Shown one piece after another: positions 25,022 to 56,756 of a DNA stretch of 64,000 nt. The notes beneath the pieces were generated by a model. That model was not told where the DNA came from, did not search any database, and worked only from the letters and a program-made list of their open reading frames with translations. The stretch comes from Hyphomonas sp. (GTDB lineage: Bacteria; Pseudomonadota; Alphaproteobacteria; Caulobacterales; Hyphomonadaceae), in contig CP051229.1 of assembly GCA_017792365.1 (NCBI GenBank), positions 1,364,001-1,428,000 of the forward strand, written 5' to 3'. Each line of letters begins with the position of its first letter. Within the stretch, counting starts at the first letter, position 1. The translations under genes and the position numbers were made by a program.

Positions 25022-25608
25022 TCATCGCGCCCAGCGCCAATCGCCGCCGCGCTTCCCACGCAAACCCGCCAAGCTGGTCTGTGACGTCGGTAAGCACGGG
25101 ATTGCCCCGGTCCTTGTCCGACATCACGCTCGGCTCCGCGCACCCCACTCAATCCCCAGCGCCGGATCATCCCACGCAACCCCAGCTCGTGCTGCGCCGA
25201 GTACGGGCGATCCACCTTGTAGCTGATCAGCGTATCAGGCGCGCGCGTACGGAACCCGTGCGCAAACCCCGCCGGGATGTAGAGCACCAGACCGTTGGCC
25301 GCAGACAATTCCTGGCTCACATGCTGGCCATACGTCGGCGACCCCGGCCGCACGTCCACCGCCACATCCAGTAGCGCCCCCGCCACGCACCGCACCAGCT
25401 TCGCCTGCGCGAACGGCGGCAATTGCAGGTGCAGCCCCCTCAGCGTGCCGGCCTGCCGCGACAGCGACTCGTTATCCTGCACAAAAACCGGCAATCGCCC
25501 GGCCTCGCTCATCTTCTGATTGAAGGTCTCGGCGAAATAGCCGCGCTCATCGCCATGACGCACCGGCGCGAATAACAGGACGTCCGGAATCGAACACCGC
25601 GTGATCAT
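25022..25608 (-). pseudogene. rfbC: dTDP-4-dehydrorhamnose 3,5-epimerase, frameshifted as assembled, 3' end uncertain
   Basis: ATG 25608 overlaps the rfbA stop (ATGA, 25605-25608). Residues read [39 protein letters not shown] with the catalytic His, LDVAVDVRPGSPTYGQ and YIPAGFAHGF. After HELGLR, one base is missing near 25173 (continuing WDDPALGIEWGA) and another near 25135-25141 (continuing EPSVMSDKDRGNPVLTDV). RfbC proteins end soon after that, but the frame stays open to 24810, so a third error probably hides the stop; a TGA in another frame lies at 25022-25024. It makes dTDP-4-keto-L-rhamnose. Confidence 0.82.
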
Positions 25609-29375: not shown

Positions 29376-29507
29376 GCTGCGCTCCTCTCGAACGCGCGGT
29401 TCTACGGCGTGGGGCCAAAAACAAGCGCTGCGCCGCCGCCAACGGCCAAATCTCTCCGCCCCCCTGGGCCCGCGCCGAAAATGGCCGTTTTCAGCCGGAG
29501 AACCCTC

Positions 29508-40315: not shown

Positions 40316-40361
40316 TACCAAAATTCCTGCTGCATGAACCTCGGCTTCAGGAGCCAACGAC

Positions 40362-41245
40362 ATGTCGACATCGTCCGTTGCGGTGAAGAAAAACGCCGCT
40401 CCGACCAGCACGCTTCTTTCGCGCCTTATTCGCGGTTTGACCACCCTGAACTATTTGGTTTTGGGGGCTTCCAGACGATCGCGAAGCACAGGACGATTCT
40501 GTACCGCACCACCGTCGCCGAGATCCGAAACATCTATGCCGGATCGCTATTCGGCACCTTATGGCTGATTTTCGGTCAGATCATAATGCTCGGCATTTAC
40601 GCGGTGACGTACGTGCTGATCTTCAAGATCCGTCCGGTCGACATGACGATCTTCGAGTATATTCTCTACGTTTTCTGCGGACTGACGTCGTTCCTTGCTT
40701 TTTCCGGCGCGCTGACGGCCGGCACCACGTCGCTCGCATCCAACCGGTCTGTCCTGCTCAATACTGTTTTTCCTGCTGAACTGATCCCTATGCGGAGCGT
40801 GCTGGTGGCCAGCGCAGGGATGCCGGTCGGCGCATTGATCCTGCTCGTCACAGACTTTTCGATCGGTCACGTGACCTGGACGACCGCGCTCATCCCGCTC
40901 GTGATGCTCATGCAGATCCTGTTTGTGGTCGGCCTGACCTGGGTGCTTTCACTTCTGGCGCTTGTGTTCAGGGACATTCAATACTTCGTCTACTACGGCA
41001 TCATGATGCTCATGTTTCTCACACCTATCGCCTATACCCCCCAAATGATGCCGGAGGGGCTGAAGTTCATCATTACAGTTAATCCTGCAGCGTACTACGT
41101 GATGAGCTTCCAGTACCTCATCATGCTCGACCAGCTGCCGCCCGCTGGGATGATCTACTGGATGACCGGCATCAGCTTCGGGATGTTCGCCGTCGGCTAT
41201 TTCATATGCAGGCGCGTCAAGGGGTCCTTCTATGACTATGCATGA
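40362..41245 (+). pseudogene. wzm: O-antigen/polysaccharide ABC transporter permease, one frameshift as assembled
   Basis: ATG 40362 has an excellent AGGAG site at 40350-40354. The start MSTSSVAVKKNAAPTSTLLS leads to LTTLNYLVLG; the G run at 40463-40467 has five bases where six are needed, after which GFQTIAKHRTILYRTT and the rest of an ABC-2 permease follow. About six membrane segments are visible, including GTLWLIFGQIIMLGIYAVTY and YFVYYGIMMLMFLTPIAYTP. It forms the channel that exports completed lipid-linked polysaccharide across the inner membrane. Its end overlaps the ATPase gene by 14 bp. Confidence 0.88.
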
Positions 41246-42676
41246 GGGCGTCCCGGCGGATCTGATCAAGCCCGCAATCCGATTCTCCAACGTCTCGAAA
41301 CAGTACCGCCTCTACGGGAAACCCCATGAGCGGATGCTGGACCAGATCGGCTGGTATGCGCTGACGTTTTGGCGCAAGCGCCCGCCCTTCCAACGCTTTC
41401 AGGCCCTGAAAAACCTGGACTTCACAATCGCCAAGGGCGAGCGAGTGGGCATTGTGGGCCGGAACGGCGCCGGCAAGACGACGATGCTGAAGCTGATCAC
41501 CGGAAACTTCGCTCCGACGACCGGGTCACTCGAGGTGGACGGTAGCGTGCAGGCCCTGATGCAGCTGGGCATTGGCTTTCATCAGGAATTTTCCGGACTC
41601 GAGAACATCAAGGCGGCGCTGCACTACAACGGCCTGACCGGCAAGACGTTCAAGGACGCGCTGGATGATGTGATCGATTTCGTGGAGTTGGGCGATTTCC
41701 TGCACCAACCCATCAAGACCTACTCGCTAGGCATGAACGCACGCCTGCAGTTCGCCGCCGCAACTGCTGTCCGGCCCGACATCCTCATTATCGATGAAGT
41801 CCTGAGCGCGGGCGACGGCTACTTCGCAGCCAAGTCGGCCCACCGGATGACCAGACTCACAGAATCAGGCTGCACCTTGCTACTGGTTTCGCACTCGATA
41901 CCGCAGGTCGTACAGTTCTGCGAACGAGCGATTTTCATCAATGAAGGCGCGGTCGTGGTCGACGGCCCCACGCTCGAAGTGGTGAAACTCTATGAGGAGT
42001 ATCTCGCGGCCTTGAACGCTCGGGAAGCGCAGGCTCGGGAAGACGCGAAGGTCATCGGCGTCAATCACAGGCAGAGCGATTACCCCACGCCGGCATTCCA
42101 GAAGGACCTATTGGCCGAACTTCTCGCCACTCACGAGCAGGCGGCAGCGTCGAAGGCCGCCGAGCGTATATCGCGCTGGAAGAGCGAAAAGGACTGAAGG
42201 CGAAGCGGGTCGAGGTCCTTGACGAGCATGGCCGGGCAGGAGGGGTTATCGAGGCTTCGAAGCCTTGCACGATCGAGGTCGAGGTCGTTGCCGAGGAGAC
42301 AGATGACTTCACGCTGACGATCGCAATTCTTGTCATGACCCTGCAGGAAGGGGTTGGTCTGGTCAGACAGCTCAGCCCTGAATTCTCGTTTCATCTCGAC
42401 AAGGATGAAACGCGGACATTCCGAATGCACATCGACAATCTGCTTCTCGCAAAAGGCGAGTTCGTCTTTTCGGTCGCGTTGTTCAAGACTTACGACCCAG
42501 ACGACACATCAACCGCTGTTCGCTACGACTTGCTCTCGCGCAGCTTCAAGCTGACAGTGAACCCGAAGATGAGAAGCGAACCAGCTTACCTGCATCATCC
42601 GGCAAATTGGGAGCAACTTGAGGATTCCGACCAGATGCTGCTCGGACGGACGAGGCAGGTTGCCCAGGCGAAGTAG
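41232..42676 (+). pseudogene. wzt: polysaccharide ABC transporter ATPase with C-terminal glycan-binding domain, one frameshift as assembled
   Basis: The ATPase part has Walker A GIVGRNGAGKTTMLK, signature TYSLGMNARLQFAAA and Walker B ILIIDEVLSAGDG, followed by the H-loop LLVSHSIP. Just after residue ~310 the frame is lost near 42165; one added base continues as YIALEERKGLKAKRVEVL, then a beta-rich region with TIEVEVVAEETDDFTLTIAI and FSFHLDKDETRTFRMHIDNL to 42676. That is the Wzt C-terminal domain that reads the finished O-antigen. Joined length is ~481 residues, typical for such two-domain Wzt proteins. It works with Wzm, whose gene it overlaps. Confidence 0.87.
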
Positions 42677-42875
42677 GCTAGGCCTCAGGCGGGACTGGGG
42701 ATAGATCGACAAATAACTGCGGGGGATTGATCGACGACTTCGTGCAACGCCTTGCCAAGGCAATGGCTTTGCCTTCATTAACCTCTTCGAAAAATCGCGA
42801 GTCCGGCGGCTGCCGTGACTTGCGCGAAACACGCTCGAGTATCAGTTTGACCGGCCGCAAGTGGAGGCGGTTTCT

Positions 42876-45068
42876 ATGTTTGTGAAATTGGGAACCTGGC
42901 TATGGATCGTTGCGGCCAGCCTCTTGTCGTACCCGGTCGGCGTTTTCCTGCACGACGTGGCAACTGCGGCAGTCGGGATGGAGCAGTCCTTCGCCACCGG
43001 TACTGAATTCGCAGCAGCCTACACCATTCCTGCCGTCATATTGGGTCTGCTGGCGGCTCAGAAGTTCGCGCGTGCCCCAGACGTCCGTTATCTGAAGCTG
43101 GCGGTCGTATGGACGATCGCGACAGCCATTAGCGCGATTACCGTTCACTATGCGCTGTATAGCACAGGCGTGACGCCGCCGACCAAGCTCGCGGCGATCA
43201 TGGGAAGCCAGTTCTTCCTCACTGGAATTGGCTTGATCCTGCGGCGGCGCTGGCTGCCCTTTTTTGTCGCTGTCGCTGCCGCCGCTGGATTGGCGGCATA
43301 CGCATTCTTGCCGGGACTGTTCCAGCTCAGCGAAACCGTCCTGCCGCTGGATCCCCTCTCCGCGCCGGAAGTGTTGAATGCGCTGTCCGTCGCGGCCGAA
43401 AACGGGCGGCTGGCATTAGCCCTCTTCGTGTTGTCTGCACTGGTGATATACGCCGTTCTCCGCTCAAGGATCGCCCGCGCGTCATCCAACTGGTCGCGTA
43501 TTTTCTATAGCGGCGTCTGGAGCGTCAGCTCGGTACTGGTATGGCTCTTTGCAAGCGGCCTGGCGTCCCTGCTCCACCAGATTCCTCGCGTGCTTCCGAT
43601 CGCAATGGTTGTCGCGATGCTGTTTTTCGTCGTCGCCCTGCCGTTGGTGGCCCTTCGCCTCAAGCGTCAGCTGGAATTCGGCAGCCTGATCTACAATCCC
43701 GCCCTCCGCGGCGAGAAGCAGGCTTGGGCGGAACTCCATCGCGGCGCCCAGAAGTCGGCCCGCCGCGCGTGGATTATTTCGTATACCGGCGTGTCCAACG
43801 AACCTCGCGTCCTTCGCCAATGTGAAGCTCTGCTATCTCAGGGATGGGAAGTGATTGTCTGCGGATTTGACGGACATTCGGCCCGCCCGGCAGCCTGGAA
43901 TTTCGTGCGACTGCCGACGACAGATCCGTTCCTGCCCTGGTTCCGCAACCTGCTGGTCACGCTCAATCGCTGGGCCCTGCGGCTGACCGTCCACGGTCGA
44001 CCCCGCTTCGCCTTCAAGTGGGCGCAACACGTCGCCCACGGCACCAACCCCACCTGGTTACAGATCCGGCTACAGGTCCTGCGCGTTGCGCGCGCCAACA
44101 TGGATCTGCGACCCGACATGGTGATCGCCCACGATTATCACACCGCAGATGTGGGCTATGCGCTAGCCAAGGAATTCAAGGCGAAGTTCTCGATTGATTG
44201 CCACGAATACGCCGTGATGCAGTACTCGAACGACCCGAACTGGGTCCGCTGGTCACAGCCAGTCATTCGTACGGTGCAGAACCACTACCTGCAGAGGGCC
44301 GATCTCGTGACCGTGGTCGGAGCGGGCATCGCGGAATTGATCGCGGCCGAGAGCGAGTTGCAAAGGCCGCCGATCGTCATCAGAAACGTGCCGTTCAGCG
44401 ATCCGCAAAAGTTTCGCCCGGTGGGTCAGAAGATCAAGGTTCTCTATCACGGGGACTTGTCGCGCCCTCGCGAAATCGACATGGCGATCAAGTCTTTGCC
44501 GAAGTGGCGACCAGAGTTCGAGCTTGTCCTTCGAGGAGGCGGCGACGTCGCGTACATCGCTGATCTCAAGCGGCTTGCCGACAGCCTCGGCGTCGCTGAA
44601 CGGGTTTCCTTCGAGCCGGCGGTCCCGTTCAATAAGATCGTGTCCAGCGCAAATAGCGCGGACATCGGTTATTTTGCCTACAGCGCCTACTCTCCGCAGA
44701 TCCAGTATGCGCTTCCGAACAAGTTCTTCGAGTACGTGATGGCGGGCCTGGCAATTTGCGTCAGCGACCTGCAGGAGGTCGGACGGCTCGTGAAGCACTA
44801 TGGACTGGGCTCCCTGATACCGCTCCACACCCCGGAATCGATTGCAGACACAATCAACAGCTTCACCCGGGACTCCATTGAAACGCACAAGAAGGCCGCA
44901 ATCGCCGCCTCCAAGGAATTGTGCTGGGAGTCAGAGCGGGAGGCCCTCATCCAGGGGTACGAGTCGATGTGGACGCCACATGCGAACGTGCGCGTATTCC
45001 GGAAGGCCGAGCGCGACACTGCGCTGGCCAGATCGATGCGCGGAACCCAGCTCGGCAACAACCGCTAG
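42876..45068 (+). CDS. polytopic membrane domain fused to a family 4 glycosyltransferase
   Basis: A ~730-residue protein with two parts. Residues ~1-265 contain about eight hydrophobic segments, for example LGTWLWIVAASLLSYPVGVF, PFFVAVAAAAGLAAYAFLPG and IAMVVAMLFFVVALPLVALR. Residues ~290-710 form a GT-B glycosyltransferase with WIISYTGVSNEPRVLRQCEA, MVIAHDYHTADVGYALA, SIDCHEYAVMQYSNDPNWV, RADLVTVVGAGIAELIAAES, VLYHGDLSRPREIDMAIKSL and LPNKFFEYVMAGLAICVSDL. ATG 42876 has GGAGG 8 nt upstream; the GTG at 42861 is less likely. I know no named family with this membrane-GT4 arrangement; a membrane-anchored transferase working next to Wzm/Wzt is a reasonable reading. Confidence 0.83.
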   Translation: MFVKLGTWLWIVAASLLSYPVGVFLHDVATAAVGMEQSFATGTEFAAAYTIPAVILGLLAAQKFARAPDVRYLKLAVVWTIATAISAITVHYALYSTGVTPPTKLAAIMGSQFFLTGIGLILRRRWLPFFVAVAAAAGLAAYAFLPGLFQLSETVLPLDPLSAPEVLNALSVAAENGRLALALFVLSALVIYAVLRSRIARASSNWSRIFYSGVWSVSSVLVWLFASGLASLLHQIPRVLPIAMVVAMLFFVVALPLVALRLKRQLEFGSLIYNPALRGEKQAWAELHRGAQKSARRAWIISYTGVSNEPRVLRQCEALLSQGWEVIVCGFDGHSARPAAWNFVRLPTTDPFLPWFRNLLVTLNRWALRLTVHGRPRFAFKWAQHVAHGTNPTWLQIRLQVLRVARANMDLRPDMVIAHDYHTADVGYALAKEFKAKFSIDCHEYAVMQYSNDPNWVRWSQPVIRTVQNHYLQRADLVTVVGAGIAELIAAESELQRPPIVIRNVPFSDPQKFRPVGQKIKVLYHGDLSRPREIDMAIKSLPKWRPEFELVLRGGGDVAYIADLKRLADSLGVAERVSFEPAVPFNKIVSSANSADIGYFAYSAYSPQIQYALPNKFFEYVMAGLAICVSDLQEVGRLVKHYGLGSLIPLHTPESIADTINSFTRDSIETHKKAAIAASKELCWESEREALIQGYESMWTPHANVRVFRKAERDTALARSMRGTQLGNNR

Positions 45069-45085
45069 TAGCGTAGGCTTTCATC

Positions 45086-45691
45086 ATGATTGTGATCGTC
45101 GATTACGGCGTGGGTAACTTGCAGTCGGTCGAGCGGATGCTGAACAAGGCCGGAGCGACCTGCGAGCTGTCCGCCGACCCCGACAAGATCACGCAAGCTG
45201 ACAAATTGATCCTTCCGGGGGTGGGAAACTTCGGACACTGCGTGGATACATTTCGCGCCAGTACGGCCTTTGAAGCGGTGAACCGTTTCGCGTTGGAAGC
45301 ACGAAAGCCACTGCTCGGCATCTGTGTCGGCGGGCAGATGCTCGGCCGATCCAGCGAAGAATCCCCCGGATCAGAAGGATTGGGATGGCTCGACTTTGAA
45401 TGCCGAAGATTCCCGGCCAGCGTCGGCCGCGTCCCACACATGGGATGGGGCCATATCACCCCGCAGCGCGAGTCCGCTCTGCTCCCGGAACTGACTGATG
45501 AATCGCGGTTCTACTTTGTCCACTCATACTACATGGACTGCGCTGATCCGGACATCACGCTCGCAACGGTAGAGTATGGGATCACCTACTGCTGCGCAGT
45601 GAACAAGGACAACATCTATGGCGTTCAGTTCCACCCTGAAAAATCACTGCGCCACGGGCTTGCCCTGATGAACGCATTCGCGACGCTATAG
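45086..45691 (+). CDS. hisH2: HisH-type glutamine amidotransferase (acetamidino sugar synthesis)
   Basis: A 201-residue class I glutaminase of the HisH family: IVIVDYGVGNLQSVERML at the start, the nucleophile in LLGICVGGQMLGRSSEES, and the His-Glu of the triad in GVQFHPEKSLRHG. Usual HisH length. There are no other histidine genes in the window, and its neighbours are a HisF2-type protein and an N-acetyl sugar amidotransferase, the arrangement known from Pseudomonas aeruginosa O5. It therefore most likely supplies ammonia from glutamine for sugar amidation and not for histidine synthesis. It starts 17 bp after the membrane-GT4 stop. Confidence 0.9.
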   Translation: MIVIVDYGVGNLQSVERMLNKAGATCELSADPDKITQADKLILPGVGNFGHCVDTFRASTAFEAVNRFALEARKPLLGICVGGQMLGRSSEESPGSEGLGWLDFECRRFPASVGRVPHMGWGHITPQRESALLPELTDESRFYFVHSYYMDCADPDITLATVEYGITYCCAVNKDNIYGVQFHPEKSLRHGLALMNAFATL

Positions 45692-45718
45692 CATCCATAC
45701 CTAACCAGTGTTGTTCTG

Positions 45719-46476
45719 ATGAAAACCCGCGTCATCCCAGTCCTCCTATTGAGAAACAAGGGTCTGGTAAAATCGGTCAAGTTCAAGTCGGCCCGGTATA
45801 TAGGCGACCCGATCAATTCGGTCCGATCTTCAACGAGAAGGAGGTCGATGAACTCGCCTTCATCGACATTACCGCAACACCGACGGGCCAGGGGCCTGAC
45901 TTCGAAATGATCGAGCAGATCGCTGGCGAAGCGTTCATGCCAATGGCGTATGGCGGCGGCGTTTCGAACTTTGAGCAGGTTCAGAAGATTTTCTCTCTGG
46001 GGTTCGAGAAGGTGATCTTCAACGCCGCCATGTTCGACAACCCTGCACTGATCGAACAGACCGCCAAGGTGTACGGATCACAGTCGACTGTTGTCTGTCT
46101 CGACGCCAAGAAAGCGATGTTCGGCAAGCACGAACTCTACACCCACTCAGGGGCAAAAAAGCGCCCCACAGCACTCCTCGATCATGTCGCCGCCGCCGAA
46201 CGGGCTGGCGCTGGTGAACTGATCATCAATTCAATCGACCGGGACGGCGTAATGACGGGATATGACATCCAGTTGACCAAACTCGTCACCGACGCCTGCA
46301 ACCTACCGGTGATCGCCCTTGGCGGCGCCGGAGAACTTGTACATCTGGCTGAGGCGGTTACCGAAGGCGGCGCCTCGGCTGTCGCAGCTGGAAGCATGTT
46401 CATCTACAAGGGGGTTCATCGGGCTGTGCTGATCAACTACCCTGAGCGCAAGTCACTACAGACCCTGCTGCCGTAA
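45719..46476 (+). pseudogene. hisF2: AglZ/HisF2 family acetamidino-sugar modification protein, one frameshift as assembled
   Basis: ATG 45719 begins TRVIPVLLLRNKGLVKSVKF; after GDPINSVR a base is missing just after 45825, and restoring it gives IFNEKEVDELAFIDITATP and a continuous frame to 46476 (~252 residues, normal for HisF). Further motifs are PMAYGGGVSNFEQVQKI, TVVCLDAKKAM and VIALGGAGELVHLAEAV. True HisF proteins start IPCLDV with a catalytic Asp; here the position reads IPVLLL, so that Asp is absent. This is typical of the HisF2/AglZ group that partners HisH in sugar amidation. It lies between hisH2 and the amidotransferase. Confidence 0.88.
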
Positions 46477-46523
46477 TCACATCACCAGACGTTCAATCCG
46501 TTTAGTCCACGAGCGAGTGCCAG

Positions 46524-47699
46524 ATGCTTCCATTTCGCAGTGAAGCCACAATTCATGAAACGCCCTACCAGATCTGTACCCGATGCATCATGGATTCTAC
46601 CGATCCGGAGATCGTCTTCGACGAGGAAGGGGTGTGCAATCATTGCCACTATTTCGAGCGTCAGCTGAAATACTACTGGTACCCTGATGAGCGCGGAAAA
46701 CCGCTGCTTGATGAAATGATCGCCGAAGTCCGGGCCTACGGCGCAAACAAGAAGTACGACGCCATCATCGGCCTCAGCGGCGGTGTCGATAGCTCCTATC
46801 TTGCCGTCAAGGTTGCTGAATGGGGACTTCGCGCGCTGGCGGTCCATGTTGACGGCGGATGGAACTCGGAACTGGCCGTCAAGAACATTGAGCAGATCGT
46901 CACGAAAGCCGGACTGGACCTGGTTACCCACGTCGTCGACTGGGACGAGATGCGCGACCTTCAGCTTGCATTCCTGAAGTCACACGTAGCCAACCAGGAT
47001 TCGCCTCAGGATCACGCGTTCTTTGCGGGACTCTATCATTTCGCGGTCAAGGCCGACATCAAGTACGTGATCAGCGGATCCAACTACGCCACTGAAAGCA
47101 TCCTGCCCGTATCATGGGGGTATGACCCCATGGACATCCGCCATCTCAAGCATATCCACAAGCGCTTCGGAACTCAGCCGCTCAAGACATTCCCACTCGT
47201 CGATTTCTATCAGTTCCATATTTATTATCCGCGCATCAAGAACATGACGGTGCTGCGGCCGCTTAACCTGATGCCCTACAGCAAGTCTCAGGCGATTGAT
47301 TATCTCGAGAAAGAATATGGCTGGCGCTATTATGGCGGCAAACACTACGAGTCGCGCTGGACCCGTTTCTTCCAAGCTTACTACCTCCCGAAAAAATTCG
47401 GATACGACAAACGGAAAGCTCACCTCGCGAGCATCGTGGTGTCGGGAGAGATCACGCGCGAAGAGGCGCTGAAGGAACTTGAGAAGCCGCTTTATTCAGG
47501 AAACGAGCTGGCCGAAGACCTGGCGTTCGTGGCCAAGAAGCTCGGCATTTCGGTCGCTGAACTGCACGGCCTGGTAGACGCTCCTCCGAAACACTACTCG
47601 GAGTATCCCACCAACGAACGACGCGCCCGAAGGTTGGCCAGTATAGACACCTGGATCAGAAACAAGCATTACCAGTTCGACCGATACATGCAGTCGTAG
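46524..47699 (+). CDS. wbpG: N-acetyl sugar amidotransferase (WbpG type), copy 1
   Basis: A 391-residue protein of the WbpG/PseA-like family. A zinc site is expected from QICTRCIMDST and GVCNHCHYFERQ (two CxxC pairs); the ATP-pyrophosphatase loop is IIGLSGGVDSSYLAVKVAE. Further conserved stretches are HVDGGWNSELAVKNIE, WDEMRDLQLAFLKS, YVISGSNYATESILPVSWGY and WRYYGGKHYESRWTRFFQAY. With ammonia from HisH/HisF2 it would turn an N-acetyl group into an acetamidino group on a diacetamido-uronic acid. It sits 47 bp after hisF2. A second copy is at 51.6 kb. Confidence 0.9.
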   Translation: MLPFRSEATIHETPYQICTRCIMDSTDPEIVFDEEGVCNHCHYFERQLKYYWYPDERGKPLLDEMIAEVRAYGANKKYDAIIGLSGGVDSSYLAVKVAEWGLRALAVHVDGGWNSELAVKNIEQIVTKAGLDLVTHVVDWDEMRDLQLAFLKSHVANQDSPQDHAFFAGLYHFAVKADIKYVISGSNYATESILPVSWGYDPMDIRHLKHIHKRFGTQPLKTFPLVDFYQFHIYYPRIKNMTVLRPLNLMPYSKSQAIDYLEKEYGWRYYGGKHYESRWTRFFQAYYLPKKFGYDKRKAHLASIVVSGEITREEALKELEKPLYSGNELAEDLAFVAKKLGISVAELHGLVDAPPKHYSEYPTNERRARRLASIDTWIRNKHYQFDRYMQS

Positions 47700-47739
47700 G
47701 CAGTATCGGATCGCGTTAACAGTTGAGTAATGCTGACCG

Positions 47740-49059
47740 ATGCCCGCCAGGAAAATACTTGTTGTCCACAACGTGTCGGACTTACGCGACGCGCGTGCGA
47801 GCAGTCTGAATCACATCTTCAGTTTTCAGCGGTACGCACCGGACAACTACTACCTGTACCAAAACTTCATGCTGCCGGTCACCGATGCAATCCGGACGAC
47901 CGACTGGGACGCGGTGATCTTTGACTCGACCTCGCTCGGGACTGTGACCCTGCGCCCCAGATACCGCTTTCCGCGACTTTGCGAGGGTTGGGCCTTCCTG
48001 CGCGACCACACGGCCCACAAGATCGCGATGCCGCAGGATGATGCATCTCACGGCGCGCTACTGGATCAGTTCTTCAACTGGCTGAAAATCGACACCGTAC
48101 TGACGGTCCGCCCGGAGTTCGCAGAACTCATCTACCCCCGAACGAAGAAGCACGCTGCATTTATTTCAACCTGCTCAGGCTATGTCGATGACCTGAGCCT
48201 CGAGAGAATGCAGCGGTTCAGCAAACGCTTCGGCGCGCGCCGTTATGTCGTCGGACAGCGCTCGACCATGTACCCAATCTGGGGCGGCCGGTTCTCGAGG
48301 AGAAAAGGTCTGGTGGCGAAGGAGATGGCGCTTGAGTGCGCCCGCCGCGGAGTGACCGCCAACATCTCTACAGATCCGAAAGACACCTTCAACGGCGACG
48401 CCTGGTTCGAATTCCTCGGCGATACGCAATTCGTGGTCGGAGCCGAAGGCGGCCACAGCCTTTGGGACCCGTACGGAACCATACAGGACGACGTGAACGA
48501 CTATCTCGCCAGGTTCCCGAACGCCTCCTTCGATGAAGTCGAGTATTTCTGCTTCGACGGCCTGGACCAGAACCACATCTTCGCGGGTTTTGCGCCAAGA
48601 GCGCTTGAAGCCGCCGTCATGGGATGCGGACAAGTGCTCGTCGAGGGCGGCTACCGCGGATTTATCGACAAGTGGCGGCACTACATTCCGCTCAAGCCAG
48701 ACTTCTCCAACTTTGATGAGGTGTTTCAGGCGATGTCCAACCAGGAGCTGGTCTTCGACATGATCGAAGCGACCCGCCGCGACCTGGTTGAGTCACCCAA
48801 GTTTCGCTACAGCAACTTTGTCTCGCGCGTGATGGGCATCATAGGTCAGTCACCGAAAGCGCGCGTCGGTCGCGGCAAGAAAACGGACTGGAGCAAGACG
48901 CTCGCCCAGCACAGCGTCGAACTGGTTTCGATGACGACGCTCCAGGGCATGCATGTGGAAAAACTGGCTGGCGAAGCGCTCATGGAGTGGGTCATCAAGA
49001 CCACGACTGGCCAGTTGCTGTCTGCAGCCGAGCTCGGCCTCGTTCCGCACGAGGGCTGA
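47740..49059 (+). CDS. uncharacterised protein, possible glycosyltransferase
   Basis: I do not recognise this 439-residue protein. It is soluble, starts RKILVVHNVSDLRDARASSL as a Rossmann-like strand, and has WDAVIFDSTSLG, KIAMPQDDASHGALLDQFFN, VLTVRPEFAELIY, VVGAEGGHSLWDPYGTIQDD and APRALEAAVMGCGQVLVEGG. The order of a N-terminal strand domain and a late A-x-E-A-x-G-C-G-x-V-L-V-E-G region resembles the donor-binding half of GT-B enzymes, where a family-1-type transferase keeps an E-x-xG motif. Position between two amidotransferase genes suggests a transferase for the modified sugar. Functional call is tentative. Confidence 0.55.
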   Translation: MPARKILVVHNVSDLRDARASSLNHIFSFQRYAPDNYYLYQNFMLPVTDAIRTTDWDAVIFDSTSLGTVTLRPRYRFPRLCEGWAFLRDHTAHKIAMPQDDASHGALLDQFFNWLKIDTVLTVRPEFAELIYPRTKKHAAFISTCSGYVDDLSLERMQRFSKRFGARRYVVGQRSTMYPIWGGRFSRRKGLVAKEMALECARRGVTANISTDPKDTFNGDAWFEFLGDTQFVVGAEGGHSLWDPYGTIQDDVNDYLARFPNASFDEVEYFCFDGLDQNHIFAGFAPRALEAAVMGCGQVLVEGGYRGFIDKWRHYIPLKPDFSNFDEVFQAMSNQELVFDMIEATRRDLVESPKFRYSNFVSRVMGIIGQSPKARVGRGKKTDWSKTLAQHSVELVSMTTLQGMHVEKLAGEALMEWVIKTTTGQLLSAAELGLVPHEG

Positions 49060-49069
49060 AGCCTTGGGC

Positions 49070-50094
49070 TCAGCCGGCCCTCCGTATGATTTTCGCAATT
49101 TCGACTGACGCCTCGCCGGTCCCATAGTCGTCAATATCGCGGCGCGGCAGGTAGTCAGTGGTGGTCCATAGACGGTTCCATCCCGCCTCGATCGTTTCAG
49201 TCCACTCGGTCTCATCGCGCACCGTCACGCAGGGCACGCGATGGAAATAAGCTTCCTTCTGCAACCCGCCGGAATCCGTCAGCACCATGGTGGAATTATG
49301 AACGAGCCAGTTCATGTCGAGGTAGCCAATGGGATCGATCATCCTGATCGACGGATAGGAGATGCCTGCATCGGCAAGCTTCTTGCGCGTGCGCGGATGG
49401 ACAGTCATGACCACAGGAACATCGCCAGAATTCGAAGCGATGAAATCCATCACACGGGCGAAGCGCTCCGGCTCATCGGTGTTTTCCGCACGGTGAATTG
49501 TCGCGACTGCATATGACTGTGGTTTCAGCCCCAGTTCGTCCAGGATCCGCGAAGCGCCTTCGGCGCGTTTTGTGGCGTCAATTGTGGTATCGAACATCAC
49601 ATCACCGACTTGGTGTACGCCCTTGGTGATGCCCTCCCGCGTCAGATTTTCGATAGCGGTGGCCACAGCAGTTCGCTCAGGTGGTCCGCAACAACCCGGT
49701 TGATCTCTTCGGGCATCTTACGGTTGTAGGAACGTAGTCCGCTTTCGACATGCGCGATGCGGATGTGTAGCTTCGCGGCGCACAGCGCGCCTGCCAGCGT
49801 CGAGTTGGTGTCGCCATAAATGAGGAACCAGTCCGGCTTCTCCTTCAACGCAACTTCTTCAAGAGCTTCCAGCATCCGACCCGTCATGGCCCCATGACCA
49901 AGACTGTTCACATGAAGATTGTACGCCGGCTTGGGGATCGACAGTTCGTCAAAAAAGACGTCAGACATTCGCTCATCAAAGTGCTGACCGGTATGCACGA
50001 TCACTTCGTCCAGCCCCTCGCGAGCGAGTGCGCGACTGACCGGTGCGGCTTTGATGAACTGAGGGCGTGCGCCCACCACTGTAAGAATCTTCAC
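49070..50094 (-). pseudogene. wbpI: non-hydrolysing UDP-sugar 2-epimerase (WbpI/WecB family), frameshifted as assembled
   Basis: ATG 50094 begins MKILTVVGARPQFIKAAPVS, then VHTGQHFDERMSDVFF, LIYGDTNSTLAGALCAAKL and HVESGLRSYNRKMPEEINRV. After DHLSELL the frame is lost near 49665-49668 and resumes as ATAIENLTREGITKGVHQVG, with AVATIHRAENTD, VMTVHPRTRKKL, LTDSGGLQKEAYFHRVPCVT to 49070. Joined length is ~340-350 residues. WecB-family members epimerise C2 of UDP-GlcNAc; WbpI does so on UDP-GlcNAc3NAcA. With wbpA, wbpB, wbpD and wbpE all present I favour WbpI; sequence alone does not exclude WecB. Confidence 0.85.
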
Positions 50095-50130
50095 TCTGGC
50101 TCCTCTTGAATTGCAATCGACGGCGCACGC

Positions 50131-50820
50131 CTAGACCTTGTTCGTCAGCGCCTCGGTACAGCAGGAAATGACGCGCGGCCGCATCAAGCCGTAATACACA
50201 GCGTGCCCGCGTTCGTTGAGATGAATACCATCATCGAGCAGGAAGTCTTCGATGGCGGCACCCTCGGCCTGACAAAGCTCGTCCAGGTGGCGCTCCGAGT
50301 CCACAAGCAACACGCTCCCGCCGTACGCCTCGGATACTTCGCGGACAATGACGTTGTATTCGCGATTGTGGGCCTCGTAATCGTAGGCGGCCCCTCGGAT
50401 TTCGATCACCCCGCGCGATGTAGGATGGTTGGTGTTCAGCAGCACAGCACGCGCACCAAAGCGTTGTCCCCGCTCTATGATCTCGCAAAGGTTGGCGCGG
50501 AACGCCGCCTTGGATACGCGGGGCCCACCCGCATCAGTAACCCAGTAATTGCAGTCGTTGAGACCGAACTGGATGAACAGGACTGCGACGCCGTCGGCCT
50601 GCACGTCCTTGGGCATGCGTTCGAGCGCCTGCCGCGTCGTGTTGCCGTTCACCGATCGGTTCGCAGGCACAAGACGGACCCCGTCGACAAGCGGCATCCG
50701 CCGAATGTCCTTCGACACGAGGTCGACCCAGGTCGCCGCACGTTCGACATGCTGGCCCACCGCGATCGAGTCGCCGAAAAAGACGACACGAGCCTCTGCT
50801 GGCGCATTACCGTCAGCCAT
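50131..50820 (-). CDS. SGNH/GDSL hydrolase
   Basis: A 229-residue SGNH-fold enzyme. Block I is VVFFGDSIAVGQHVER with the Ser nucleophile, the Gly/Asn blocks are VNGNTTRQALERM and IQFGLNDCNYWV, and block V is LDDGIHLNERGH with the Asp-x-x-His pair. No signal peptide, so it should act in the cytoplasm. SGNH proteins in glycan loci can add or remove O-acetyl groups or cleave thioesters. Its start overlaps the methyltransferase stop by 8 bp, pointing to coupled translation. It is followed by the wbpI gene on the same strand. Confidence 0.85.
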   Translation of the reverse strand: MADGNAPAEARVVFFGDSIAVGQHVERAATWVDLVSKDIRRMPLVDGVRLVPANRSVNGNTTRQALERMPKDVQADGVAVLFIQFGLNDCNYWVTDAGGPRVSKAAFRANLCEIIERGQRFGARAVLLNTNHPTSRGVIEIRGAAYDYEAHNREYNVIVREVSEAYGGSVLLVDSERHLDELCQAEGAAIEDFLLDDGIHLNERGHAVYYGLMRPRVISCCTEALTNKV

Positions 50821-51517
50821 CGTGATACAGATCGCCCTTCATCTCCAGCGTCACCACCTGCCGGCCATTCGGAAACAGCGACGGGGCGCCAGGGTCGAAT
50901 ACGGTCCAGTCAGGCTCAATGATCCTGTCCTGGTGCCTTTCAAGCACGCCCCTTGTCCGGTCCCCATCCCAGGCGAGGATCCACATTGTCTCGTCTGCCC
51001 CCACCCGTTTCACATGATACACCCGTTCCGACTCATAGAACGTCAGAGAGAGACGGACTACCTTGCTGACTGGAAGGGCCGTCGCCAGAAAGCTGTCCAG
51101 CCGCTGGTCGACGTTCGGAAACAGATCGTTCGCCACCACAACATCGTAGGTTTCGCGCCAGGGTAAGTCTGTCCATCCCGTCCGGCTCAAGCGCATCGAA
51201 AGATCACTCTCGATATACATGGCGATCAATTCATCGCTGTCGTGCACAAGCGGATCAACGAGATGATAGCTGTGGGAACGGCTCAGCACCCGCGTGAGCG
51301 CCGACAAACCGCCTCCGACATCACATATGCTCAGCCCTGCGGACTTCAGAAGGTCGCCGTATAGCTCCTCGAAACACACCCGCTTGGCGGGTGTTTCCCG
51401 TAACCAGCGCTGGCTGGTGAGGCGGTTGTCGAAATCGCGCGACACGGCGTCCAATTGAGCGCCCATGGAGTCTTCCACGAGGTACGCCGCCCGGAAATCC
51501 TCGGTCAACCTGCGCAT
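50813..51517 (-). CDS. probable SAM-dependent methyltransferase
   Basis: A ~234-residue protein with a degenerate class I methyltransferase core: SICDVGGGLSALTRVLSRSH is motif I, YHLVDPLVHD the acidic strand 2 end and YDVVVANDLFPNVDQRLDSF the strand 4 region. The C-terminal part carries WILAWDGDRTRGVLERHQDR and a beta-rich end. The match is by motif pattern only, so confidence is moderate. ATG 51517 was chosen as the first Met with a purine-rich upstream stretch; a start at 51583 is possible. It overlaps the SGNH gene by 8 bp, so methylation and acyl handling may act on the same sugar. Confidence 0.68.
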   Translation of the reverse strand: MRRLTEDFRAAYLVEDSMGAQLDAVSRDFDNRLTSQRWLRETPAKRVCFEELYGDLLKSAGLSICDVGGGLSALTRVLSRSHSYHLVDPLVHDSDELIAMYIESDLSMRLSRTGWTDLPWRETYDVVVANDLFPNVDQRLDSFLATALPVSKVVRLSLTFYESERVYHVKRVGADETMWILAWDGDRTRGVLERHQDRIIEPDWTVFDPGAPSLFPNGRQVVTLEMKGDLYHDG

Positions 51518-51630
51518 AGGTCCGCCCACGCCCTCCAGCCGTCGCTCGCGGCACCTTATCCTCGACACTACCTGCCAACGCAACTATCAAAACAGGCTTG
51601 GATCTGCCGAACCGAGACACAAGAATCAGT

Positions 51631-52845
51631 ATGTCAGCCAGCGTCGCCGCTAATCTCAGGACGAGCTCCAAGGCCTACCAGCAGTGTGTCTGCTGCGTGA
51701 TGGATACGACCGATCCGGACATTGCCTTCGACGACGAGGGCGTCTGCAGTCACTGCGCCTACTTCGAGCGCGAAGTCGTCCCCGCATGGCCCCGCGGCGA
51801 AACGGCGAGCCGCAACCTGTCGGCGATGATCGACGGGATCCGTTCCGCAGGAAGGGGCCGCCAGTATGACTGCATTCTCGGCATGTCGGGCGGCGTGGAC
51901 AGCTCGTATCTCGCTCTGCTGGCCTCACGCTGGGGGCTACGTCCGTTGGTCGTACATGTTGACGCCGGCTGGAATTCCGAGCTGGCGGTTCGCAACATCG
52001 AGCTGATGGTCACGAAACTCAACTTCGACCTCCATACGGTGGTCATTGACTGGGACGAAATGCGTGACCTCCAGCTAGCGTTCCTGCGCTCGAATACATC
52101 GAACCAGGACATCCCCCAGGATCACGCGTTCGCTGCGGCGACATTCAAGCTGGCGATGAAGCATGACATCAAGTTCATCGTGAGCGGCACAAATTACGCC
52201 ACCGAAAGCATTCTTCCCCAGTCATGGGGCTACGACGCGATGGACGTCACCTATCTCAAATCGATCCATAATCGACACGGCGCGCGCCAGCTGCGTTCCT
52301 TCCCGTTGATCTCGTTTCCGAGGTACTACCTCATCACGAGGGGCCTGTTGAACATCCAGACGGTCTGCCCTCTGAACTATATTTCCTATAGCAAAGAAAT
52401 GGCGATCGACGAGTTGGAGCGCGAGTTCGGCTGGCGCTATTACGGCGGCAAGCACTACGAATCCCGATGGACCCGCTTCTTCCAGGCTCACTACCTTCCC
52501 AGGAAGTTCGGGTTCGACAAGCGCAAGGCCCATCTATCCAGCCTGATCTTGTCAGGAGCGATCACTCGCAACCAGGCTGTGCAGGAGCTGAAGAAGCCAT
52601 TGTACACGGACAACGAGCTCGCAGAGGACAAGGCATTCGTAGCGAAAAAACTTGGCCTGACTGCCGATGAGCTGCAGGCGTTCATTGATGCTCCTGCCGT
52701 GGCCGATGACGAGTACGCAATGCACACCAGCCAGCTGGCCGCCCTTCGTTACGCGATCGGGGCGCAGCAACTGATGACCCGTGCGGCTAACCTTCCCCGT
52801 CGTGTCGCATCGAGGATTATCCGCGGTCATGCCGCCGCCAAGTAG
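51631..52845 (+). CDS. N-acetyl sugar amidotransferase (WbpG type), copy 2
   Basis: A ~404-residue paralog of the protein at 46524-47699. It keeps the CxxC pairs (CVCCVMDTTDPDIAFDDEG and VCSHCAYFERE), the pyrophosphatase loop ILGMSGGVDSSYLALLAS, HVDAGWNSELAVRNIE, WDEMRDLQLAFLRS, FIVSGTNYATESILPQSWGY and WRYYGGKHYESRWTRFFQAH. All catalytic elements look intact, so it is probably active. A C-terminal extension (~40 residues, Ala/Arg-rich) is specific to this copy. ATG 51631 is used; the frame is open to a TTG at 51598. No second HisH/HisF2 pair lies beside it. It converges on the sulfotransferase gene, 6 bp away. Confidence 0.9.
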   Translation: MSASVAANLRTSSKAYQQCVCCVMDTTDPDIAFDDEGVCSHCAYFEREVVPAWPRGETASRNLSAMIDGIRSAGRGRQYDCILGMSGGVDSSYLALLASRWGLRPLVVHVDAGWNSELAVRNIELMVTKLNFDLHTVVIDWDEMRDLQLAFLRSNTSNQDIPQDHAFAAATFKLAMKHDIKFIVSGTNYATESILPQSWGYDAMDVTYLKSIHNRHGARQLRSFPLISFPRYYLITRGLLNIQTVCPLNYISYSKEMAIDELEREFGWRYYGGKHYESRWTRFFQAHYLPRKFGFDKRKAHLSSLILSGAITRNQAVQELKKPLYTDNELAEDKAFVAKKLGLTADELQAFIDAPAVADDEYAMHTSQLAALRYAIGAQQLMTRAANLPRRVASRIIRGHAAAK

Positions 52846-52851
52846 ACAGCC

Positions 52852-53788
52852 TTAGTCAGCTGCCGGACGTCCCGGATAGCTATGGCATCCAAGACGCGCA
52901 GGATCGGTCTGGATATAACGCTTGAGGTTCTCGACCAGCTCAGCAGGCAGTTCGCGGTCCTGCTTCGCCGCGCTGGACGCCGTCTCGGGGATTTGAGCCA
53001 TCGAAATCGCCTTCAACGCTGCGATTTGGGCGCCAATCTGTTCGCATGTGTCCGACGGGCGGGCCACGACATCCTCATACCAGACCTCAACGAAGCGGTC
53101 GCTTTCCAGTCGTTCGGCCGCCTCGGAAATCGCTCTGGCAAACTCAACTGTTCTCGACCACCTGCTCCCAGACCGGCAGCTTTCGCAATTCATCCAGATT
53201 TCTGGGAGAGGCGGAATTCCACACATCGGGCGATCCCTGTACCAGCACCCGAGCCTCAAGATCCGACAGCGCGCAGGCCTCGATATCCCGACGTATCCAG
53301 ATGAAGCAGGCCCCGGGAAGCAGTTCGGCCAGCGCCGATACCCGGAAGCAGTTCCATGCATTCTTGATCAGGATCGGCGTAGACTGAAGCAACTGGGCTG
53401 CCGCAAGTGTGCGTCTCAGGTGCGCGCGTTGGTCGGGAAGCACGCCGGAACTCGTCAACTCGCTTGGATGCCCTCCGCCGCACCAGCGCTGCATGATCGC
53501 CGACCCTTCTGACGGCGCAAGCGCACCTCTGGTTTTGCCGAATGCGCTCTCGAAGGCCAATTCGGGTTCCGGCAGTCCACGCGCAATCGCCCAGCCGAGG
53601 ATCGGCGCGTCTGCGAAGTGGTCATTGGTAAGGTTCGAAATATATCCCAGTCGGTACGCGGCAATCAGACACTGATAGAGAAATGTGCTGCCGGTCCGCG
53701 GCGCTCCGAGAATGAAGACCGGCGTCGGCTCGGGGGGGCTGCCTCGGCCGACAATCTGCTCGATGACGATATTTTCTGTTTCATGCAT
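52852..53788 (-). pseudogene. sulfotransferase family protein, one frameshift as assembled
   Basis: ATG 53788 leads to PVFILGAPRTGSTFLYQCL, the 5'-phosphosulfate loop, then ACFIWIRRDIEACALSDLEA, the 3'-phosphate region with Arg-Asp. After WEQVVEN the frame breaks near 53149-53152 (one extra base or two lost) and continues as VEFARAISEAAERLESDRFV, WYEDVVARPSDTCEQIG to 52852. Joined length is ~311 residues. It would transfer sulfate from PAPS to a sugar or lipid in the cytoplasm or at the membrane. A sulfotransferase suits a marine or surface glycan, which is inference. It lies tail to tail with the second amidotransferase. Confidence 0.82.
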
Positions 53789-53924: not shown

Positions 53925-54287
53925 ATGTCTGGTCTGGTGATCCTGCACGCGCCGGCGGATGAGTGGCTGGCGATCGAGGTCGAGCGGCGCTGCGGGGTCG
54001 ATTTCACGGTGAAATGTTCGTTCGATAGCGCGCAATCTCTGTCTTTCGGGCGCCACCTGACCATCGGGGTGGTCTGGTCGAATTCGACCGACACAGTCGC
54101 ACTTGACCAGTTGTCGTTCGTCCATTCGGTCAGAAATCTGATGGTGCTGTTGTTCGACAAAGCATCACTGCCCTCGCCTCTGTCCGACAAGATCATCTAC
54201 GAGATCCCCACCGAGAACGAAATTGAAGCCTCCGACGTCCTCAAAAAAATGACAGAGTGTCGCGCGGAAGCAATGCTGACCGCGTAG
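53925..54287 (+). CDS. small uncharacterised protein
   Basis: A 120-residue soluble protein with no family I can name. It starts SGLVILHAPADEWLAIEVER and has HLTIGVVWSNSTDTVALDQ and LMVLLFDKASLPSP, an alternating beta/alpha pattern that recalls a small flavodoxin-like or TIR-like fold. ATG 53925 follows GGGAG 8 nt upstream, so translation is plausible. It lies between the sulfotransferase (divergent) and wbpB, with 56 bp before the latter, and may belong to the wbpB transcription unit. Confidence 0.55.
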   Translation: MSGLVILHAPADEWLAIEVERRCGVDFTVKCSFDSAQSLSFGRHLTIGVVWSNSTDTVALDQLSFVHSVRNLMVLLFDKASLPSPLSDKIIYEIPTENEIEASDVLKKMTECRAEAMLTA

Positions 54288-54343
54288 TCACTCACACTTG
54301 GCCCAACGGGGCCCTATCGACGATCGAATACACAGGAACGAGC

Positions 54344-55303
54344 ATGAACACGAATGTGCCTAAAGTCGCGCAGGTCGGTTGCGGATACTGGGGCAAGAAC
54401 CTCGTCCGGAACTTTGCGGAGCTGGACGCACTCGCCGCCGTCGTTGATCCCGATCCCGCCACAGCGGCCCGCGAAGGCGAGAAATACGGCGTTCAGGCCC
54501 TGTCCTACGAAGACGCCCTCGCCCATCCCGACGTCTCTGGCGTCGCCATCGCCGCGCCCGCCGAACTGCACGCCGATCTGGCGCTCAAGGCGTTCGCCGC
54601 CGGCAAGCATGTCTACGTCGAGAAGCCCATCGGGCTCACCATCGCCGAAGGCGAAAAGATGAAGGCGGCGGCCAGCGAAGCCGGCCGCGTCCTGATGGTT
54701 GGCCACCTCCTGCAATACCACCCCGCCTTCATCGCGCTGCTCGGCGCGGTCCGCGACGGCGTCCTCGGCGACCTGCGCTACGCCTACTCAAACCGTCTCT
54801 CGCTGGGTAAGTTCCGGGTCGAGGAAAACGCGCTGTGGAGCTTCGCGCCCCACGACGTCTCCATGCTCCTCGCCTTGTTCGGCGAAGAGCCGGAAACCGT
54901 CACCGGCAAGGGCGGCGCCTACGTCACCCCCGGCATCGAGGACGAGTGCCGCCTCGACCTCACCTTCGCCGGCGGAAAACGCGCCCACGTCTTCGCCTCC
55001 TGGCTACATCCGTTCAAGGAGCACCGGCTCGTCGTGGTCGGCGAAAAAGCCATGGCGGTGTTCGAGGACTCGGCTCAGGGCGCCGAGAAACTGCGGCTCT
55101 ACAAACACACCATCGACGCTTCCGGCCATACCCCTGTGCCGACCAAGGCCGACGCCGAGCCCATCCTGTACGGAACCGACGAGCCCCTGCGCAGCGAGTG
55201 CGCCCACTTCCTCGACTGCTGCGCGACCGGCGCAACCCCGCGCACAGACGCGGACGAGGCCCTGAGGGTGTTGAAAGTCCTCGTGAAAGCCAGCGCCGGC
55301 TGA
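54344..55303 (+). CDS. wbpB: UDP-N-acetylglucosaminuronate 3-dehydrogenase (WbpB/WlbA type)
   Basis: A 319-residue Gfo/Idh/MocA oxidoreductase. The dinucleotide fold starts AQVGCGYWGKNLVRNFAEL and the catalytic Lys lies in VYVEKPIGLTIAEGEKM; the substrate domain has GHLLQYHPAFIALLGAV and SFAPHDVSMLLALFGEEP with the conserved His. The GCGYWGKN start and the neighbours point to the enzyme that oxidises C3 of UDP-GlcNAcA. ATG 54344 follows AGGAACGAGC; an in-frame start at 54257 overlaps the preceding gene and is unlikely. A 274-bp gap to wbpE holds no recognisable element. Confidence 0.88.
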   Translation: MNTNVPKVAQVGCGYWGKNLVRNFAELDALAAVVDPDPATAAREGEKYGVQALSYEDALAHPDVSGVAIAAPAELHADLALKAFAAGKHVYVEKPIGLTIAEGEKMKAAASEAGRVLMVGHLLQYHPAFIALLGAVRDGVLGDLRYAYSNRLSLGKFRVEENALWSFAPHDVSMLLALFGEEPETVTGKGGAYVTPGIEDECRLDLTFAGGKRAHVFASWLHPFKEHRLVVVGEKAMAVFEDSAQGAEKLRLYKHTIDASGHTPVPTKADAEPILYGTDEPLRSECAHFLDCCATGATPRTDADEALRVLKVLVKASAG

Positions 55304-55577: not shown

Positions 55578-56756
55578 TTGGACATTTGCGCCTTGAGCAT
55601 CGCATTCATCGACCTGCAGGCCCAGCGACACCGCATCTCCGACAAGATCGATACCGCCGTTCGCAGCGTGATCGAGAGCGGCGCCTACATCATGGGACCG
55701 CAGGTCCGCGAGTTTGAAACGAAACTCTCCGAATTCTCCGGCGCGAAACACTCCCTCGGCTGCGGCAACGGCACGGACGCGCTGGTCCTCCCGCTGATGG
55801 CCTGGAATGTCGGCCCGGGCGACGCAGTCTTCTGCCCATCCTTCACATTCGCCGCCACCGCCGAAGTCGTACCCATCGTGGGCGCAAGCCCCGTCTTCGT
55901 CGATGTCCTGCCAGACACCTACAACATGGACCCCGACCACCTCGAGAAGACGATCGAGGCGGTAAAGGCCGAAGGCAAGCTGACGCCCAAGGTCGTCATC
56001 GCCGTCGACCTGTTCGGTCAGCCCGCCGACTACCCGCGCATCGCCGAGATCGCCAAACGCCACGGCCTGAAACTGATCGCCGACAGCGCTCAGGGATTCG
56101 GCTGCACGCTCAACGGCAAGCACCCGGTAGACTGGGCCGATATCGTCACCACCAGCTTCTTCCCGGCCAAGCCGCTCGGCTGCTACGGCGACGGCGGCGC
56201 GGTCCAGACCAACGACGATGACCTCGCGGAACTCCTCGACAGCCTCCGCGTCCACGGCAAGGCGACCAAGTCGGACATCGAAAGCCGCAAGTTCGAACAC
56301 GATCCGAAATACCTGAACATGCGCGTCGGCGTGAACAGCCGTCTCGACACCATCCAGGCCGCAATCCTGATCGAGAAACTCGCCATCTTCGCCGACGAGA
56401 TCGAGAAGCGGAACGAAGTCGCCGCCCGCTACAATGAAGGCCTCAAGGGCTATGTCGCCGCCACGCCCTTTGTTATCAAAGGCGGCGTCTCGACCTGGGC
56501 CCAGTACACGATCGAAGTCGACGACCGCGCCGGCCTCGCCGCCCACCTCAAGCGCGAGAACGTGCCGACCGCCGTCTACTATCCGATGCCGATCCACACG
56601 CAGGACGTCTACTCGGTCTATCCGCTGGGCCCGGGCGGCCTGCCGGTCACGATGGAGAAGGCCGAGAGGGTCATCAGCCTGCCGATGCACCCGTATCTCG
56701 AACCGGCCGTGCAGGACGACATCATCGCCAAGATTCGCGCATTCAACCGGGGATAA
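55578..56756 (+). CDS. wbpE: UDP-3-keto-GlcNAcA aminotransferase (WbpE/WlbC type, DegT family)
   Basis: A ~392-residue PLP enzyme. It opens with IAFIDLQAQRHRISDKIDTA, then IMGPQVREFETKLSEFSGAK, LGCGNGTDALVLPLMAW, PSFTFAATAEVV, the PLP Lys in TSFFPAKPLGCYGDGGAV and RVGVNSRLDTIQAAILIEKL. It adds the 3-amino group from glutamate to UDP-3-keto-GlcNAcA. No ATG fits; the start is TTG at 55578 or 55593. Its TAA overlaps the ATG of wbpA by one base (56756), so the two are translationally coupled. Confidence 0.9.
   Translation: MDICALSIAFIDLQAQRHRISDKIDTAVRSVIESGAYIMGPQVREFETKLSEFSGAKHSLGCGNGTDALVLPLMAWNVGPGDAVFCPSFTFAATAEVVPIVGASPVFVDVLPDTYNMDPDHLEKTIEAVKAEGKLTPKVVIAVDLFGQPADYPRIAEIAKRHGLKLIADSAQGFGCTLNGKHPVDWADIVTTSFFPAKPLGCYGDGGAVQTNDDDLAELLDSLRVHGKATKSDIESRKFEHDPKYLNMRVGVNSRLDTIQAAILIEKLAIFADEIEKRNEVAARYNEGLKGYVAATPFVIKGGVSTWAQYTIEVDDRAGLAAHLKRENVPTAVYYPMPIHTQDVYSVYPLGPGGLPVTMEKAERVISLPMHPYLEPAVQDDIIAKIRAFNRG

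Follow-up and report, generated by a model that had tools for sequence, protein, structure and literature searches.

Can one glutaminase/tunnel pair of the HisH2–HisF2 kind serve two N-acetyl sugar amidotransferases (NASATs) in the same cell? This question is raised by a gene cluster of Hyphomonas sp. (assembly GCA_017792365.1), located in the window analysed here, that is, the whole stretch of 64,000 nucleotides at positions 1,364,001 to 1,428,000 of contig CP051229.1, whose own numbering is used throughout. Between 45086 and 52845 the window carries hisH2, hisF2, a first NASAT gene (W1, 46524–47699) and a glycosyltransferase-like gene on the plus strand, followed by genes for a 2-epimerase, an SGNH hydrolase and a possible methyltransferase on the minus strand and by a second NASAT gene (W2, 51631–52845) on the plus strand. 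The first-pass annotation of this DNA had proposed that two intact-looking paralogs share a single HisH2–HisF2 pair, either putting two differently amidinated sugars into one polymer or with one copy relying on another ammonia source. We find that two NASATs beside one HisH2–HisF2 pair are a real, recurrent variant, and we infer that both W1 and W2 draw on the same pair.

Both genes belong to the NASAT family TIGR03573 (WbpG/WbuX; curated cut-off 203.2 bits), with 301.8 bits for W1 and 295.9 bits for W2, and both reading frames are uninterrupted end to end; for W2 an alternative in-frame TTG start lies at 51598. The hallmarks of the family are a PP-loop SGGxDS and a zinc-binding tetracysteine CxxC-(n)-[GN]xCxxC (extract of PMC10607449). 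In a 36-row alignment including W1, the PP-loop residues S86, G87, G88, D90 and S91 and the zinc tetracysteine C19, C22, C39 and C42 (W2 numbering) are invariant. Of the 101 columns in which at least 85% of 34 other NASATs agree, 96 are retained in W1 and 95 in W2, two of the six departures of W2 falling within the first CxxC (CVCC). The AlphaFold model of W2 (predicted local distance difference test score, pLDDT, 91.2) has the Legionella pneumophila NASAT 8wex, which has the same zinc tetracysteine and PP-loop, as its top match in the PDB (E 8e-14; template modelling scores 0.62/0.65), with only 20% identity in the structural alignment. The two proteins are 58–60% identical (60% across 347 gap-free positions), a single DNA repeat of 208 nt at 72% identity was detected between the genes, and the aligned codons differ at fractions of 0.36, 0.28 and 0.56 at the first, second and third positions. 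A recent duplication was thus rejected, and the suspicion that the copies might be near-identical duplicates is answered by an old divergence. The intactness of the two paralogs stood up, and the tree and alignment of both copies place them in the same subfamily, diverged and with conserved motifs. Judged by these comparisons, W1 and W2 are old, constrained paralogs of one subfamily.

The ammonia-supplying genes adjoin W1 on the plus strand (45086–45691, 45719–46476 and 46524–47699). The first, hisH2, encodes a class I glutamine amidotransferase, which is the glutaminase partner in supplying ammonia (TIGR01855, 224.6 bits, cut-off 105.4), and the second is a hisF2 of the AglZ/WbuZ type (NF038364), which is read in two frames with a break near 45826. 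A search of the host genome, assembled as one contig of 3,398,407 bases (G000), found a single HisH2 and a single HisF2, besides hisH and hisF at a histidine-operon-like site near 2.48 Mb, and no third NASAT in the whole 3.4 Mb. The claim of only one hisH2–hisF2 pair therefore holds genome-wide.

How often, then, do two NASATs meet one such set? In a draw of 398 genomes from the host's own phylum (taken as Pseudomonadota), in which NASAT copy numbers are lower bounds, 41 genomes including the host have a NASAT above the cut-off. The expectation that such genes are normally single fits 30 of the 40 genomes other than the host's, which have one NASAT above the cut-off among the matches listed, but at least 11 of the 41 have two or more, and in at least six of the 41 two NASATs lie within 15 kb. 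Among the five close pairs other than the host's, three (G373, G388 and G330) are accompanied by one HisH/HisF set outside the histidine-operon type. Named loci, restricted to the best 80 of 180 confirmed, gave 15 with a second match, three of which (L009, L010 and L054) were dropped as probably other PP-loop proteins (603–605 amino acids, 23–24% identity, branch length 5.3), leaving 12 loci with two NASATs. Exactly one HisH and one HisF accompany the pair in seven of these (L008, L016, L029, L031, L053, L076 and L083), while L043, L063 and L068 have two HisH/HisF sets each, L022, truncated close to the end of its locus, has one HisF and two HisH, and L055 shows no HisH or HisF within its stretch.

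Genome-wide, two NASATs with one HisF2 above the cut-off were found in Candidatus Accumulibacter regalis (a metagenome-assembled genome), Bordetella trematum and Sulfurospirillum cavolei. L029, L076 and L083 come from genomes with one HisF2 above the cut-off each, and L053 from one with two. The family group to which Campylobacter showae (L072) belongs comprises 61 genomes, and HisF and HisH were searched in the nine with at least two NASATs above the cut-off; four of them (G443, G463, G468 and G488) have two NASATs, one HisH–HisF pair adjoining one NASAT and a histidine-operon-like set. The HisF proteins of G373, G388, G330 and the Campylobacter group are all below the HisF2 cut-off and are called dedicated by their position beside a NASAT only. 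A unique arrangement was thus rejected, since two-NASAT loci recur both in the own phylum and among the named loci, where the 2:1 ratio is found in at least four phyla.

Two fusions of HisF2 with a NASAT were also found, at L130:15521–17602 (G330) and L114:202–2619 (G048), each matching the WbuZ and then the WbuX profile, with the WbuX part above its cut-off and the WbuZ part below its own. Such fusions fit a direct hand-over between the partners. G330 carries its fused NASAT together with a second NASAT and has no other HisF besides a histidine-operon-like one, which makes it an instructive example in nature. As a separate observation, the NASATs at L016:8750–11128 and L130:2685–4592 have N-terminal extensions of ~417 and ~261 residues, respectively, with no other NCBIfam match.

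Comparison with known systems makes the arrangement less special than the best candidate for an undescribed variant, as which it had been singled out, given the ratio in at least four phyla and a likely precedent in Campylobacter jejuni. The wbp cluster of Pseudomonas aeruginosa O5 contains WbpG, HisH, HisF and WbpA/B/D/E/I, that is, one NASAT, and its product is exported by Wzx/Wzy. The window shares with it the NASAT, HisH/HisF and the types of sugar enzymes, and differs in having two NASATs, two AsnB-like proteins and an ATP-binding cassette (ABC) exporter. In C. jejuni, PseA and PtmG are both NASATs that form amidino groups on different sugars. The role of WbpG is described in an extract of PMC10607449, whose alignment legend includes two Campylobacter NASATs. 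PtmG (Cj1324) converts CMP-Leg5Ac7Ac into its 5-acetamidino form (extract of PMC3766260), and PseA (Cj1316c) is listed with HisH (Cj1315c) and HisF (Cj1314c), the latter two being ascribed to histidine synthesis (extract of PMC12102941). By analogy, and as far as these extracts go, this suggests that C. jejuni is an earlier example in which two enzymes amidinate different sugars beside one HisH/HisF pair. That system differs in placing nonulosonic acids on flagellin, with no polymer of 2,3-diamino-uronic acid.

Closer counterparts are found among the named loci. The locus of B. trematum LMG 13506 (L031) shares the Gfo dehydrogenase, acetyltransferase, aminotransferase, 2-epimerase, HisH2, HisF2 and two NASATs, and differs in that its NASATs come from different clades and WbpM-like and WecA-like genes stand alongside; no AsnB was found among the 10 open reading frames (ORFs) scanned there. 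No O-chain structure of B. trematum was found in a literature search that included part of one review. In A. regalis (L008), the genes run ABC ATPase, AsnB, glycosyltransferase, HisH, HisF, NASAT, glycosyltransferase, NASAT, all of these types being shared with the window, and the first NASAT is 65–66% identical to W1; the second does not fall in the clade of W2, suggesting that it was gained independently. The 'cluster B' of a cell-associated polysaccharide in Sphingomonas has as common features a WbuX NASAT, HisF2, HisH, an exosortase-associated amidotransferase, a sugar dehydrogenase, an aminotransferase and an acetyltransferase, each of them a hit in a colony-morphology screen; it differs in having one NASAT in its table (extract of PMC11340318). 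Acetamidino sugars themselves are recorded in polymers of Pseudoalteromonas, Vibrio, Plesiomonas and Flavobacterium (extract of PMC3210612). No title or abstract opening in the literature retrieved, most of its full texts being unopened, says that two NASATs share one HisH/HisF set.

Combined with the above analysis, one HisH2–HisF2 pair probably feeds two NASATs whose targets are different sugars, or different positions, within a single polysaccharide exported by an ABC system, a reading to which we assign a probability of roughly 0.55. Homologues of a dehydrogenase, a 3-dehydrogenase, an aminotransferase, an acetyltransferase and a 2-epimerase would, judging from their families, build the nucleotide sugar; HisH2 would free ammonia from glutamine and HisF2 would hand it on; and each NASAT would activate an N-acetyl group via its PP-loop, so that both could use the ammonia delivered by HisF2 to convert an acetamido into an acetamidino group. 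The two acceptors could be separate nucleotide sugars, or else a single one modified at two positions or present as two epimers. That the acceptors of W1 and W2 differ appears plausible from the other two-NASAT loci, where in a 131-row tree the two NASATs stand clearly apart in four of the seven (L008, L016, L029 and L031), as would be expected if their acceptors differ. This tree excludes one NASAT of G373 as weak, with 96 bits against the custom profile, although its 337.5 bits on the family profile exceed the cut-off. Of the two options first put forward, a polymer carrying two kinds of amidinated sugar stays the best reading, with the ratio real but recurrent and the sharing and the acceptors presumed. 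More tentatively, and with somewhat less than even confidence, HisH2–HisF2 could act as a common ammonia hub to which two different NASATs dock in turn, yielding an ABC-exported polymer with two chemically distinct amidinated and, via the AsnB-like proteins, amidated sugars, while several lineages would each have acquired second NASATs on their own as a rapid route to new surface chemistry.

Several observations weigh against this reading. In the cluster itself, hisF2 is frameshifted as assembled, and W2 lies outside the hisH2–hisF2–W1 string, between minus-strand genes. In the trees, W1 and W2 fall in one weakly supported clade of 13 rows (84/89), and constraining them to be sisters costs 3.64 log units (approximately unbiased test, p 0.111) and is not rejected; in the 131-row tree, both NASATs fall within one broader clade in L053 and likewise in L076, and in L083 they form a close pair. 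Elsewhere, the close-pair genomes G413 and G320 have one HisH/HisF set per NASAT. Five genomes of the Campylobacter group (G434, G446, G453, G485 and G490) have two to three NASATs with one HisH above the cut-off and a single HisF exceeding 100 bits, and G061 of the own phylum has two NASATs with one HisH/HisF set, so that a dedicated pair may not be needed for NASATs to work. Finally, a polymer of Vibrio vulnificus YJ016 is reported with one acetimidoyl sugar (extract of PMC3210612), and the figure legend of PMC10607449 lists, with no strain named, three NASATs from V. vulnificus, two of which (WP_011149293 and WP_011149294) might be adjacent genes judging by their numbers; the number of NASATs therefore need not equal that of amidinated residues per polymer.

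The best-surviving alternative, which we consider unlikely, is that both NASATs act on the same sugar as redundant or dosage copies and yield one kind of amidinated residue. On the one hand, W1 and W2 lie within one cluster, and with 58–60% identity, a common clade and a sister relationship that is not rejected they may share an acceptor. On the other hand, W1 groups in a 31-row tree with the Accumulibacter copy and two betaproteobacterial copies (87/84, not strong) rather than with W2, which lies nearby at no resolved position, and both genes have stayed conserved over a long divergence, which is disfavoured under pure redundancy.

Still less probable is that W2 receives its ammonia from the histidine-operon HisH/HisF, from an AsnB-like protein or as free ammonia. 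The host does have a second HisH/HisF set and two AsnB-like proteins, W2 is detached from the string, and the six genomes with at least two NASATs and a single HisH/HisF set would agree with such a supply, so that the original suggestion of another ammonia source for one copy survives as a lower-ranked rival. W2, however, is conserved at much the same level as W1, and the three named genomes with two NASATs and exactly one HisF2 are simply explained by sharing.

Frame breaks, which the first-pass annotation overlooked in hisF2 and in the epimerase, bear on a further possibility. The NF038364 profile runs over hisF2 from 1 to 36 at 45719–45826 and from 37 to 247 at 45826–46458 in different frames; the higher-scoring of the two pieces has 283.1 bits and the other 50.0 bits, so that neither reaches the HisF2 cut-off of 310 alone because of the break; the epimerase matches wecB over 1–148 and then 151–319 of 366. 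A glycosyltransferase at 39082–40444 seems split, its second piece being a weak match, and so does a sulfotransferase at 52852–53788, judged from ORFs of which one alone has a family match. Outside these genes, metK (59461–60632), the sole copy found in the genome, is also divided, with profile stretches 1–266 and 261–374 of 377. This gene is normally essential, and the breaks seen in hisF2 and in the epimerase are therefore likely to be indel errors of sequencing or assembly. That the locus is decaying, with hisF2, the epimerase and perhaps others as true pseudogenes and amidination dead, is very improbable, since the sole metK and a TonB-dependent receptor outside the cluster are split likewise, as if the errors were assembly-wide, and W1 and W2 remain open and conserved. 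The receptor is found in two ORFs at 11881–13921. Two merged ORFs, one joining a dTDP-sugar epimerase and a nucleotidyltransferase (23869–25818) and the other Wzy_C and Acyl_transf_3 domains (17644–19656), possibly reflect other indels.

If HisH2–HisF2 indeed serves both W1 and W2, the glutaminase/tunnel pair of sugar amidination would not be bound to one synthetase, and counts of hisH2 and hisF2 could not tell how many residues of a polymer are amidinated. Glycan prediction would then do better to place each NASAT on the tree instead of counting copies. The 2:1 genomes of S. cavolei, A. regalis and B. trematum, together with the HisF2–NASAT fusions, make sharing testable.

The window contains homologues of all five types of sugar enzyme (WbpA, B, D, E and the 2-epimerase), which in P. 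aeruginosa O5 are the types for UDP-ManNAc3NAcA synthesis in the UDP-ManNAc3NAmA pathway. The nucleotide-sugar dehydrogenase (56756–58258, plus strand; TIGR03026, 413.4 bits, cut-off 189.8) is above its cut-off, while the 3-dehydrogenase, aminotransferase and acetyltransferase have sub-equivalog-cut-off or one-relative matches and the epimerase is in two pieces. These are a Gfo/Idh dehydrogenase of the UDP-GlcNAc 3-dehydrogenase type (54257–55303, plus strand; NF040723, 133.6 bits, below the cut-off of 450), a DegT-type sugar aminotransferase (55578–56756, plus strand; TIGR03588, 236 bits, below 423.5), a WbpD/WlbB-like N-acetyltransferase (28773–29567, minus strand) and a WecB-type UDP-N-acetylglucosamine 2-epimerase (49070–50094, minus strand; two ORFs matching wecB). 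The acetyltransferase is 63% identical over residues 2–163 to that of the Sulfurospirillum locus, and its hexapeptide acyltransferase matches are all below the cut-offs. A plus-strand ORF of 450 amino acids (29283–30635) overlaps the acetyltransferase ORF and, by eye, resembles DUF2793 or tail-like proteins.

Export is presumably of the Wzm/Wzt type. Upstream of the NASAT module lies a plus-strand ABC exporter (40310–42197) composed of a permease (40310–41245) with weak matches below the cut-offs (NF050109, 28.7 bits; PF01061, 21.7 bits) and an ATPase (41232–42197) that best matches polysaccharide and teichoic-acid exporters (209.8 bits, below their cut-offs). Wzx/Wzy export was not found beside the NASAT module among the window ORFs scanned, the Wzy_C domain lying at 17644–19656. 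Two plus-strand AsnB-like amidotransferases, at 35162–37063 (TIGR01536, 410.3 bits, cut-off 267.1) and 37082–38986 (matching the first at 31% identity along its length), might make uronamides. Judging from these families, the cluster probably makes an ABC-exported surface polysaccharide with sugars of the 2,3-diamino-uronic-acid type.

Directly upstream of hisH2 stands a GT4 glycosyltransferase (42861–45068, plus strand; PF00534, 39.6 bits) whose N-terminal half is hydrophobic by eye and which has a 42% identical relative immediately before hisH in A. regalis L008. The genes between the two NASATs fared unevenly against their first assignments. The SGNH/GDSL hydrolase (50131–50820, minus strand) is borne out by PF13472 (76.3 bits, cut-off 32.9) and the epimerase is split, but the protein first called unknown (47740–49059, plus strand, 439 amino acids) looks like a GT-B glycosyltransferase. 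It has no NCBIfam or Pfam match, and its structure model, of middling quality (pLDDT 69.5, from a five-sequence alignment), matches best in the PDB the GT-B enzymes PimB' (E 1.7e-6) and BshA (E 8.3e-6); four relatives of it surround a NASAT in Bradyrhizobium (L014:7111–15904). The possible S-adenosylmethionine methyltransferase (50813–51583, minus strand) was proposed from a glycine-rich motif seen by eye, and a PtmH-like N-methylase was considered for it; its product had no NCBIfam or Pfam match and no significant PDB sequence match.

Just beyond W2, the apparently split sulfotransferase (52852–53788, minus strand) matches PF13469 with 50.2 bits on 53144–53788, and the overlapping ORF at 52855–53361 has no family match. 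The G+C content of 39082–53788 is 58.6%, versus 63–65% in the surroundings, and a NASAT was found in 0 of the 24 same-family genomes searched; because of both, this stretch looks horizontally acquired.

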